Below are positions 40,327 to 43,991 of a stretch of 51,120 nt of DNA, in pieces. Source of the stretch: a virus; IMG/VR virus record IMGVR_UViG_3300003177_000007, positions 1 to 51,120 of that record. One strand, given 5' to 3'. Made by a program: the position numbers and the translations under genes. The notes under the pieces were generated by a model. The model was not told the DNA's origin, searched no databases, and saw nothing but the letters and a program-made list of their open reading frames with translations. How positions within the stretch are numbered: the first letter of the stretch is position 1; each line of letters starts with the position of its first letter.

Positions 40327-41229
40327 ATGAATCAAGACTTTTCTACAGCGGAAGACATGCGGCTGCTTGAGGCCGTTCCTGAGTATCTAAGCATTTCGCA
40401 AATGTTAAAGGCTTCTCCAGTGATGGAGGGTGGCGAGCGTTTTATTTATATTGAGGCTTCCAATGAGTCTCTGGATCAGCAGGGCGAAGTGATACTGTCA
40501 AAGGCTCTCGAAGATTCGGCGGCATATTATCTTAAATTTGGCAACCTTGATTTAGATCATTATACCCAGATCGGAGCGCGGTCTGGTATTCCAAACTATG
40601 AATTGTTCGAGATTGGACGACCGATTGATGTTCGCGTCCGCGATGGGCACACATTCGTAAAAGGTCAGGTTTATTCCGGTAGTGGATCCTCAGCAGAGCG
40701 AGCCAATTCATTTTGGTCAAGCGTTACTGAGTTGACTCCCCCGGCGCGTTGGTTTCCATCGGTTGGTGGTGCCGTTGTAAATAAGTCCATAGTTATTGAT
40801 CCCAAGAGCAAATGTAAGAAGGCTTTAATCAATAAGGTTCGTTGGACGAATATTGGTTTTTCCAAAACACCTGTAAACCCCAGCTTGGCCACGGTATCAA
40901 CGGTTCCGTTTGGTGCGCTTGCAAAGTCATTTGGTGACGGTGGATTTGACATGATTAAGGCACTTGAGGCCGGTTATGGAACTGACTCTGCCACGCTTTC
41001 TGGTGGTGGAGCATTGAGAACACAATCCCTTGCTGGCGGAGTATTGTCATATTGGGATTTCAGAGATCGCTTGGCGGGTATGATCCGCAATGGCGAGGTC
41101 AGCGGCGGCAAGCCTGCTGAATTACAAAAGGTTGCAATGGAATGTTTCGGGCTTTCGGCAGATGCTGCGGCTCGAAGTGTACAACGATTCCTTGGTGACT
41201 TAAAAAGAGGCTTGAAGGAGAGGTCATGA
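40327..41229 (+). CDS. Prohead protease-like protein with a capsid-like C-terminal peptide
   Basis: 300 residues. Placement before scaffold and major capsid, plus FIYIEASNESLDQQGEVI, FGNLDLDHYTQIG (candidate catalytic His) and PARWFPSVGGAVV (candidate Ser), fits the herpesvirus/HK97-type prohead protease group that trims scaffold and capsid. Residues about 210-236 (IKALEAGYGTDSATLSGGGA, LRTQSL) nearly repeat the N-terminus of the major capsid protein. No Shine-Dalgarno precedes ATG 40327; it lies immediately behind the late motif. An ATG at 40357 is a possible alternative. Confidence 0.6.
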   Translation: MNQDFSTAEDMRLLEAVPEYLSISQMLKASPVMEGGERFIYIEASNESLDQQGEVILSKALEDSAAYYLKFGNLDLDHYTQIGARSGIPNYELFEIGRPIDVRVRDGHTFVKGQVYSGSGSSAERANSFWSSVTELTPPARWFPSVGGAVVNKSIVIDPKSKCKKALINKVRWTNIGFSKTPVNPSLATVSTVPFGALAKSFGDGGFDMIKALEAGYGTDSATLSGGGALRTQSLAGGVLSYWDFRDRLAGMIRNGEVSGGKPAELQKVAMECFGLSADAAARSVQRFLGDLKRGLKERS

Positions 41230-41867
41230 GTAAATTTGATGAACTATTGGTGGATCTGGAAAAACTCCACTCCAACCAACTTTTGAAGTCCGCCCCGGCT
41301 GCTGATGTTGCTGCTGTGGGTGAACCGAAAAAAGATGATGATGATGAAAATATTGAAGCGGCTGCACAACAGACGGAAGATGCTGGTGCTGCTGAAGATG
41401 ATATTGAAAATATCGATGATGACACTGAAGATGAAGAGCTAGGTAAATCCTTCAGCTTCACGCTGGAAAACGGCGAGACAGTAGAAGCTGTTGATGGCAC
41501 TGAAATGGTTAAGGCATTGTCTTTGAAGCTTGAAACTCAGAGCGAGACGATGGCCAAGGCTCTTGGTACCGCAGTTGACCTGATTAAGCATCAGGGCGGT
41601 GTGATCGACGCGTTGACGGCTCGCGTTGATTCAATTGCGTCTTCCGGTCGTGGTCGCAAGGCTGTGGTTTCGATTGCGGAAAAGTCGGAGGCCGAGATGC
41701 ACAAGTCTGACGAGCCAGCTGGCATGTCAGGTGAAGCGTTTATGACCAAGGCTCTATCAGCACAGAAGGCTGGGCATATCACAGCGCATCAGGTATCTCT
41801 TGCAGAAGGCTACCTGTCGAAAGGTCTGGCAGTGCCAGCCGAACTCGTACAAAAAGTATTAAACTAA
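41226..41867 (+). CDS. Scaffold-like capsid assembly protein
   Basis: 213 residues, start overlapping the protease stop. Acidic low-complexity stretch (KKDDDDENIEAAAQQTEDAG), a helical coiled-coil centre (SLKLETQSETMAKALGTAVD) and a small C-terminal helical domain (GHITAHQVSLAEGYLSKGL). This composition between protease and major capsid genes is typical of an internal scaffold. No sequence family recognised. Confidence 0.62.
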   Translation: MSKFDELLVDLEKLHSNQLLKSAPAADVAAVGEPKKDDDDENIEAAAQQTEDAGAAEDDIENIDDDTEDEELGKSFSFTLENGETVEAVDGTEMVKALSLKLETQSETMAKALGTAVDLIKHQGGVIDALTARVDSIASSGRGRKAVVSIAEKSEAEMHKSDEPAGMSGEAFMTKALSAQKAGHITAHQVSLAEGYLSKGLAVPAELVQKVLN

Positions 41868-41883
41868 AAGGGGGATTGAAAAG

Positions 41884-43326
41884 ATGAATCCAGCAATGTT
41901 ACCAAATATCGCAACCGGCCAGACAATGTCCGGCGAGATGGGGACAGGGGATGTCGCAGAACTGAAGAAGGCTCTTGAAGCCGGATACGGTACTGACGTT
42001 TCCACACTTACGGGTGGTGGTGCTTTACGCATCCAGTCTCTGGAAAAAACCATGCTTTCAACCATTCAGGAAAACAAGCACTTTGCCTTGTTTAATGAAC
42101 TGGCGAAGAGCAACGCAACGGCCACCGTTGACGAATGGACTGAACAGTCTGGTGTGGGCGGGTTCCTTGGTGGATCCACCAACTCTGAAACCGGCAATAT
42201 CGCCGGCTCTACCGGGCAGTATGACCGCCGCACCGGGATGGTTAAGTATCTCATGACTCGTCGCGAGGTTTCGTTCGTTTCGACTCTCCAGAACTCAATC
42301 ATCGAAGCTGAGGCTGTTGAAGCCCAGAATGGTGCCCTGCAACTGCTTACTGATGCGGAATTCCTGTGCTTTGAGGGTGATTCCTCAGTTGTTCCAACCG
42401 AGTTTGATGGCATCAATCAGCAGATTTCGTCCCTTGGTTCTACCGACCATGTGATCGATGCTGCAGGCTCGTCCCTGAACAGTATTGATCTGGTTGATCA
42501 GGCAGCCTCTGTAATTTCCGGTTTCGGAAACTTTGGTACTCCAACCCACTTGTTCATGTCTCAGTTGAACCAGTCAGACTTCAATACCAATCTTGATCCT
42601 GCTTTCCGTGTCAGCTTGAGCGGCAATTCACAGGATCTGATGCTGGGTGCCCCGGTTAAAGGCATTAGCACGTCATGGGGTGATATTAAAACCATTTCTG
42701 ATGTGTTCATTCGTGACGAACGTCAGCAGAGGCCATTCCAGCTGGATTATCCAGCCGTAGCTGCTGCCAACGCCTTTGTTCCTGCTTCCGTCACTCCGGC
42801 TGCACCAGCGTCAAACACTGGCAGTAAGTTCGGGGCTACACATGCTGGCAACTACTTCTATGCTGTTGCTGGTGTGAACGCCGAAGGTCAATCGACCGCA
42901 GTCGTGTCGGCACAGGTCGCAATCACCGCTGGTGATGGTGTTGATATTACCATTGCACGCTCGGCACCAGCTACTGAAACAGGTTATGTAATCTATCGCG
43001 GACGCAAGAACGGTACAAACGCTCTGGCTGATCTCCGTGTGATGGCGCGTATTCCTGTTGCGGGTGCAACCACTGTGTATACCGACATTAACGAAGATAT
43101 TCCGGGTACGTGTAAGGCGTTCATCCTGAATATGGCTGGCGGTTGCAATGCTATTAATTGGCGGCAGTTGCTACCTATGACCAAGTTCCCTCTGTACCCA
43201 ACCGTATCAGCGGTTGTTCCATGGGCACAGTTGCTGTTTGGTTATCTGCGAATCGGCAAACGCAAACATCACGTTGTTGTGAAGAACATTGTTCCCACAG
43301 GCGCACTGTGGAAACCGTTCGGTTAA
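41884..43326 (+). CDS. Major capsid protein with FN3-like insertion
   Basis: 480 residues behind AAAGGGGG. The N-terminus (KKALEAGYGTDVSTLTGGGA) and blocks AVEAQNGALQLLTDAEFLCF, TPTHLFMSQLNQSDFN and SWGDIKTISDVFIRDE are those of myovirus HK97-fold capsid proteins. Residues about 305-415 (GNYFYAVAGVNAEGQS; GYVIYRGRKNGT) are a fibronectin-III/Ig-like insertion, likely displayed on the capsid surface. Followed by a strong terminator. The highest-expression gene of the region by position. Confidence 0.82.
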   Translation: MNPAMLPNIATGQTMSGEMGTGDVAELKKALEAGYGTDVSTLTGGGALRIQSLEKTMLSTIQENKHFALFNELAKSNATATVDEWTEQSGVGGFLGGSTNSETGNIAGSTGQYDRRTGMVKYLMTRREVSFVSTLQNSIIEAEAVEAQNGALQLLTDAEFLCFEGDSSVVPTEFDGINQQISSLGSTDHVIDAAGSSLNSIDLVDQAASVISGFGNFGTPTHLFMSQLNQSDFNTNLDPAFRVSLSGNSQDLMLGAPVKGISTSWGDIKTISDVFIRDERQQRPFQLDYPAVAAANAFVPASVTPAAPASNTGSKFGATHAGNYFYAVAGVNAEGQSTAVVSAQVAITAGDGVDITIARSAPATETGYVIYRGRKNGTNALADLRVMARIPVAGATTVYTDINEDIPGTCKAFILNMAGGCNAINWRQLLPMTKFPLYPTVSAVVPWAQLLFGYLRIGKRKHHVVVKNIVPTGALWKPFG

Positions 43327-43685: not shown

Positions 43686-43991
43686 ATGCCACGTATTATT
43701 TGCACAACACCAAACGCTTCAAACATTATAAATGGAGTTGAGTTTGAGCCTCATGGTACAGATATGGTTTCTGTTGATTCTGTTTCTGACGATGTTGCTG
43801 AACACTTTTGTAAGATTGATGGATATAGTATTTTGGCTGATGCTCCAGCTGGCAACACAGCAGAGCCTGTTGCACCTGTTGCAGAGCCTGTTGCAGAGCC
43901 TGTTGCACCTGTTGCAGAGCCTGTTGCAGAGCCTGTTGCAGAGCCTGTTGCACCTGTTGCAGAGCCTGTTGCAAAAACAAGCCGCTGCTAA
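43686..43991 (+). CDS. Pro/Ala/Val repeat head protein with a possible +1 frameshift
   Basis: 101 residues as read. An N-terminal globular part (RIICTTPNASNIINGVEFEP, about 1-55) resembles small head proteins; then comes an EPVA/PVAEPVA repeat. In the annotated frame it ends with KTSRC. A +1 shift at the A-run 43973-43977 would instead continue as QAAAKKAAAKKASE to a stop at 44022, a Lys/Ala tail typical of such proteins, so either a programmed shift, a real mutation or an assembly error is present. Confidence 0.55.
   Translation: MPRIICTTPNASNIINGVEFEPHGTDMVSVDSVSDDVAEHFCKIDGYSILADAPAGNTAEPVAPVAEPVAEPVAPVAEPVAEPVAEPVAPVAEPVAKTSRC
43860..43973 (+). repeat. Tandem GAGCCTGTTGCA / CCTGTTGCA repeat
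   Basis: About eleven units of nine or more bases built from GAGCCTGTTGCA (12) and CCTGTTGCA (9), encoding EPVA and PVA. Units are almost identical at DNA level, so repeat number is likely to vary by slippage or recombination. Confidence 0.75.

Follow-up and report, generated by a model that had tools for sequence, protein, structure and literature searches.

The prohead protease encoded in the 51,120-base virus record IMGVR_UViG_3300003177_000007 (positions 1 to 51,120, the whole stretch analysed, here called the window) carries a peptide which is repeated near the N-terminus of the major capsid protein (MCP) of the same phage. On balance, this stretch of the protease probably imitates the N-terminal arm that the phage's own MCP has after maturation; docked in the MCP lattice, it would keep the protease inside the procapsid up to the time of cleavage. 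The prohead (head maturation) protease gene (40327..41229, on the plus strand as are all features below) codes for 300 amino acids and matches PHROG 1028, head maturation protease (E=1.9e-35), while the MCP gene (41884..43326; 480 amino acids) matches PHROG 752 (E=2.2e-89). The shared peptide occupies residues 210-235 of the protease (nucleotides 40954-41031) and residues 28-53 of the MCP (nucleotides 41965-42042). The earlier note on this DNA, which had reported a likeness at about 21 of 26 positions, proves exact, with 21/26 residues and 55/78 bases identical in one contiguous 26-residue stretch rather than in two pieces; of the 21 residues that agree, only 8 share the codon too. A BLASTP comparison of one stretch with the other finds 23/34 identical residues at E=4e-13 (for this single comparison), and these are the only two copies of the peptide in the record. 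The putative mimic itself comprises protease residues 212-235 (ALEAGYGTDSATLSGGGALRTQSL; 40960..41031), assigned on its match to the MCP and situated in a region (residues 185-240) of low mean predicted local distance difference test (pLDDT) score. The copied peptide of the MCP, the predicted mature N-terminal arm, comprises residues 30-53 (ALEAGYGTDVSTLTGGGALRIQSL; 41971..42042), as assigned from the peptide match and from the cut in phages 812 and A511. As had been noted, the two proteins are otherwise unrelated, the protease model matching T4 gp21 and the MCP model matching the SPO1 and 812 capsids.

The duplication, which it had been proposed to seek in relatives, is found throughout most of the sample of 15 loci from annotated phages and about 290 from viral contigs, in which each protease was paired with the next MCP to give 170 distinct pairs. 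In 163 of the 170 pairs, those of SPO1, Exiguobacterium phage EalM-132, Lysinibacillus phage LysYB1 and Twort among them, the match between the protease C-terminus and the N-terminus of the phage's own capsid protein is better than all 100 shuffles, and the duplicated peptide is also present in both A511 and 812, which were fetched after the main sample. Loci L285 and L224 fail the shuffle test owing to truncated or mis-paired genes. A motif profile run on 10 complete relatives recovers exactly two places per genome, one in the protease and one in the MCP, and when the protease-family profile is searched against the PDB, the SPO1 and 812 capsid proteins rank first, through the shared peptide. 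Lineage-specific versions of the peptide occur in both genes of the same phage, with TSPDTQVDAGALR/ITPDTQIDAGALR in 812 (an A511/812 pattern of xTPDTQ../xSPDTQ..), AGDPHALDxKxGLxGVPAIR in Thermus phage Cumys, ANPPxxGGDVLR in L311, GYQTPAGM..PQS in L240 and KSMTTGY.HGGTDQ in L292. In Enterococcus phage vB_OCPT_CCS1, the label 'putative major capsid protein' is given both to the protease (L316:2765-3553) and to the real MCP adjoining it, and the shared peptide is a likely cause of this misannotation.

The two copies further co-vary within each phage. The scores of own-protease/own-capsid combinations were compared with swapped scores for 81 phage pairs with non-overlapping tree paths, where copies that had been independent after an old duplication should give a difference symmetric about zero. 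The own combination scores higher in 43 pairs and lower in 16, with 22 ties (sign p=6e-4, Wilcoxon 1e-4); the greater the divergence, the larger the mean own-pair gain. The controls in this test (reversed sequences, other parts of the MCP, the N-terminal half of the protease and stretches lying downstream of the motif) give no signal; a result for the motif segments only (51:11) was set aside, as these segments had been chosen on own-pair alignments. The co-variation is in register, since double changes scored site by site are concordant in 28 cases and discordant in 6 (p=2e-4). Partial distance correlations were calculated for 128 phages, and as their permutation (Mantel-type) p-values are anti-conservative, the swap test carries the main weight. 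With both cores controlled, the divergence of the protease motif correlates with that of the MCP motif at a partial r of 0.76; the protease motif correlates with the MCP core at 0.37, and with its own catalytic core at 0.03, which is not significant (p=0.18). The adjacent C-terminal domain of the protease correlates with the protease core at 0.45, evolving more with that core than with the MCP. When the analysis is confined to the gammaproteobacterial-type clade, the protease motif follows both cores (0.38 and 0.32). Bordetella phage PHB04, whose protease core has its neighbours in one class while its MCP and protease motif belong to another, is, judging from these affinities, a natural recombinant.

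When the copies are aligned on the lysine preceding the motif, a lysine followed by a small residue is aligned in both copies in 149 of the 163 phages. Similarity is near background upstream of this lysine, where only a hydrophobic P3 residue is shared, begins at the first residue after it and extends to about +25. The capsid is cut at this bond in two phages: the mature MCP chain of 812 (PDB 9row) starts at S25, the serine after ..VVK, and the mature peptide in the A511 GenBank record starts at S24, after ..ALK. The 445 modelled residues of SPO1 chain 9vel_B (468-23) are consistent with a cut at the same bond in this phage. K29 of the window MCP is invariant in 55 MCPs and would end a predicted propeptide of residues 1-29 (41884..41970; LKK|A), so that an N-terminal cut at Lys|Ser/Ala is predicted for the window phage from the site itself and from the 812 and A511 records. 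Such dipeptides are also frequent in the scaffolds, with 880 KS against 241 expected among 138 loosely non-redundant scaffolds, in the context [LM]xK[SA][LFM], while KS is depleted in the MCP bodies (66 vs 137). This enrichment suggests that the scaffold sites are cut as well. The downstream peptide is missing at the K|S sites of these 138 scaffolds, and the protease thus does not appear to need the peptide for cutting. Since the similarity starts at the cut and runs into the mature arm, and since the scaffold sites lack the peptide, the copied segment corresponds to the mature capsid arm and not merely to a cleavage site.

The same sites are relevant to an alternative in which the protease copy is a substrate mimic, namely a cis substrate or pseudosubstrate with extended (exosite) recognition, where the same protease reads both copies and its activation is regulated by self-cleavage. 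In its favour, each copy starts at a Lys|Ser/Ala bond, a kind of site in which scaffolds are enriched, and C-terminal autocleavage is documented for the SPN3US and phiKZ proteases (PMC5694885). This alternative is nevertheless unlikely, as the similarity spans +1 to +25 and ends sharply upstream of the cut, the scaffold sites are recognised by [LM]xK[SA] without the peptide, and across all phages the divergence of the motif is not tied to that of the catalytic core when the MCP is controlled. A pure cleavage-site motif would be conserved only in the positions flanking the scissile bond, whereas own-copy identity remains high to +25. The plain cleavage-site mimic suggested in the earlier note accordingly holds for the [LM]xK|[SA] bond at which both copies begin, which explains about five residues, and is ruled out as a full explanation by the other approximately 20 residues downstream, which are missing at the scaffold sites.

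Under the preferred reading of the stretch as a copy of the mature capsid arm, the mimic would be set in a flexible linker between the catalytic domain of the protease and a small C-terminal helical domain. During procapsid assembly it would dock at the normal position of the capsid N-terminal arm in the MCP lattice or, alternatively, in unoccupied arm sockets such as might exist around the portal, and a limited number of proteases would thereby be built into the shell along with the C-terminal domain. The activated protease would cut after the lysine at [LM]xK|[SA] in the scaffold and the MCP, freeing the MCP arm, and would cut itself at K200/K211, so that its catalytic domain would come free of the docked tail. 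The first of the two ideas put forward for this DNA, that a capsid-like tail binds the partner of the capsid, is the better supported of them, in that the tail copies the mature arm and tracks its own MCP motif and core rather than the catalytic core; the docking itself is put forward here as a proposal. In procapsids, N-terminal arms are located beneath the capsomer, close to the spine helix and the scaffold (PMC12749128, PMC10275583). The MCP arms of JBD30 bend at the portal (PMC11445458), and bending of this kind, by analogy, could leave sockets. Proheads of HK97 and D3 contain ~60 and ~90 proteases, respectively (PMC12749128), the protease has been detected in the virions of a Twort-like phage (PMC5618024), and the C-terminal regions of SPN3US gp245 have been inferred to target this protease into the prohead (PMC5694885). 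The broader proposal, that in SPO1/Twort-type phages of both Gram-positive and Gram-negative hosts the protease may enter the procapsid by impersonating the capsid, with an arm copy that would dock, co-evolve in register and be self-severed, has about equal chances of being right and wrong.

It is rather improbable that the MCP arm and the protease tail both bind a shared third partner, the scaffold or the portal, instead of the MCP lattice. N-terminal arms touch the scaffold in the procapsids of other phages (PMC12749128, PMC10275583), and between the protease motif and the scaffold there is a weak partial correlation in the gammaproteobacterial-type clade (0.11, p=0.06) as well as in all phages (0.19), but the correlation with the MCP core is stronger and persists in the protease motif when the scaffold is controlled (0.27-0.28). 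Concerted evolution by gene conversion between the neighbouring genes, with no function needing the match, has a very low probability. The two genes lie about 1 kb apart, and in loci L101, L081 and L067 more identical codons are observed between the copies than expected (14/22, 17/21 and 16/22, respectively), which may reflect recent recombination or conversion between the protease and capsid genes. Over the 163 phages, however, identical codons are used at 1717 of the 3649 same-residue positions against 1685.5 expected (z=1.1), and at 8/21 in the window. Codon identity near expectation indicates that the match is kept at the protein level, and the long-term match of the peptides alongside randomised synonymous sites argues for selection at that level, which bears out the earlier inference of selection from the DNA being less alike than the protein. 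Gene conversion is thus ruled out in general by codon identity, though a few lineages may have experienced it. Chance or convergent low-complexity similarity, for which only the Gly- and Ala-rich composition of the peptide speaks, can be dismissed in view of the E value of 4e-13, the 163/170 pairs above all 100 shuffles, the exactly two genome-wide matches in 10 complete phages and the HK97 tail/head and T4 comparisons, which are not distinct from shuffles.

Several results weigh against the proposed docking function. In the swap test, 16 of the 59 informative pairs go in the opposite direction, including SPO1/EalM-132, and the permutation p-values of the correlations err, as stated, on the permissive side. 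The C-terminal domain of the protease is itself weakly correlated with the MCP motif (0.18), and the scaffold, as a possible common partner, shows the weaker correlation given above. The shared peptide is disordered in the monomer models of both the protease and the MCP, which are hence silent on docking. The motif is also not essential everywhere, being absent or unrecognisable in the proteases of Bacteroides phage DAC19, L236 and L089, and is weak or degenerate, and therefore doubtful, in those of L220 and L287. L089 is a close relative in which the K|S site and the C-terminal domain are kept and the peptide is lost; a frameshift was considered and rejected, as the other frames do not restore the motif. 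Going by this locus, the peptide can be dispensed with, unless something else takes its place there. A close relative without the stretch but with normal capsid assembly had been named beforehand as the case that would speak against a function, and L089 supplies this in part, as it lacks the stretch but is an uncultured contig. In L236 (4495-5850), the protease and scaffold are fused in one 451-residue frame with many KS sites, and the mimic is absent from the protease. With such a fusion, no separate docking tag would be needed, though this is a single case and the DAC19 scaffold is unfused. Taken together, the peptide occurs very widely without being strictly indispensable.

The AlphaFold2 model of the window protease comprises a confident catalytic domain, a low-confidence linker (residues ~185-240) containing the motif and a confident C-terminal domain. 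The catalytic domain (about residues 28-180; 40408..40866; pLDDT mostly >88) has the prohead protease fold of T4 gp21 and herpes assemblin, in line with the PHROG 1028 match: the top three Foldseek matches are to 5jbl (T4 gp21; E 7e-7 to 4e-6), and human cytomegalovirus proteases match far more weakly. H78 and S145, which are invariant in 55 protease sequences, are candidate catalytic residues. A propeptide of residues 1-28 (40327..40410) is predicted to end at MLK|A, as M26-L27-K28-A29 are invariant in eight aligned gammaproteobacterial-type proteases, and cleavage at this bond would follow the pattern of the scaffold sites. Two further candidate cleavage sites lie upstream of the motif, namely K200|S201 at the end of the protease core (40924..40929; K200 invariant in 55 sequences) and K211|A212 directly before the shared peptide (40957..40962; K211 nearly invariant), and the protease may cleave itself at these lysines. 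The conserved K200 and K211, together with the modelled core, flexible linker and three-helix C-terminal domain (residues 241-300; 41047..41226; pLDDT mostly >88), would allow the C-terminal segment to be split off from the catalytic domain by cleavage. Matches of the C-terminal domain to integration host factor are weak (E 0.04 or worse). The window MCP resembles the SPO1 capsid protein 9vel by sequence (E=4e-33) and by fold (9e-33); its modelled HK97 fold is of the SPO1 type, and most of residues 1-59 are disordered in the monomer.

Targeting of a head protease by its C-terminal tail is of a known kind. The C-terminal parts of SPN3US gp245, phiKZ gp175 and HK97 gp4 are self-cleaved and have been inferred to act as prohead carriers, to which the window tail is alike, while the text read of that source, in contrast to what is seen in the window protease, describes no capsid-derived peptide in these tails (PMC5694885). 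The feature is not a property of all phage proteases: unlike the window pair, T4 gp21/gp23, T4 gp21/gp24 and the HK97 gp4 tail/gp5 head are no more alike than shuffles. A comparison of the whole HK97 gp4 with the first 150 residues is mildly high (5/200 shuffles), through an alignment of the protease N-terminus with the end of the delta domain, outside this motif. A likeness also exists to the T4 capsid targeting sequences, described in the same source as short peptides which direct proteins to the prohead interior and which the head protease cleaves (PMC5694885). Those sequences are N-terminal propeptides of 10-20 residues removed by the protease, while the mimic is internal, C-terminal of the catalytic domain, copies the mature arm and lies on the retained (P') side of the cut. 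Encapsulin cargo-loading peptides, with which a short tail peptide docks an enzyme inside an HK97-fold shell, are alike in concept, and encapsulins appear among the fold matches of the MCP model; these are different proteins, however, and the window peptide copies the shell's own arm and co-varies with the shell. A tail that copies and co-evolves with the mature arm of the capsid was not found in the literature searched, outside of which most subscription journals lay.

A scaffold-like gene of 213 residues with nine K[SA] dipeptides (41226..41867), in the position of the SPO1 gp3.3 scaffold, sits between the protease and MCP genes. Its start overlaps the protease stop as ATGA (41226-41229), an overlap also seen in the annotation coordinates of L001, L002 and L003, which suggests translational coupling. 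The head genes of the window have the order and families of those of Bacillus phage SPO1, in that the protease, scaffold-like and MCP genes follow the order of the SPO1/Herelleviridae head module (portal, protease gp3.2, scaffold gp3.3, MCP gp6.1), and SPO1 itself also has the duplicated peptide. Unlike SPO1/Herelleviridae, the lineage of the window is one of ~90-kb phages of Gram-negative hosts, its nearest named relatives including Bordetella phage PHB04 and Pseudomonas phage Touem01. A Pfam search gave no match. The MCP contains a beta-rich insertion (42790-43130; residues ~300-415), part of which (residues 304-383) is also similar to PHROG 8040 'head closure Hc3' (E=1.5e-6), suggesting a shared immunoglobulin-like module. 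Right after the capsid region, a small gene (43686-43991) carries a tandem PVAEPVA repeat, of which long open frames on other strands and frames are a by-product. In L311 (1809-3644), an upstream head gene of 611 residues appears to hold an intein-like insertion (CFPAGVCVYTKTGVV..IAVHNC) within an otherwise continuous sequence.

The protease is present in limited number inside the procapsid, and the mechanism of its placement is open for many families; the authors of the SPN3US study ask for clarification of what C-terminal autoprocessing does (PMC5694885). For SPO1, A511 and K/812, sequence evolution points to an answer that can be tested at the level of residues, along with a predicted cleavage rule, [LM]xK|[SA], for their head proteins. 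As the bond follows a lysine, virion proteomics based on trypsin cannot separate the phage cut from the trypsin cut, which may be why the matter has been missed. If the proposal is true, the matched arm would also lend itself naturally to use as a lineage-specific tag for cargo in these large capsids. How the protease is held in the growing shell has been little explained in SPO1/Twort-type phages, and the arm copy, matched to each phage's own shell over deep evolutionary time, is probably the means by which this is achieved.

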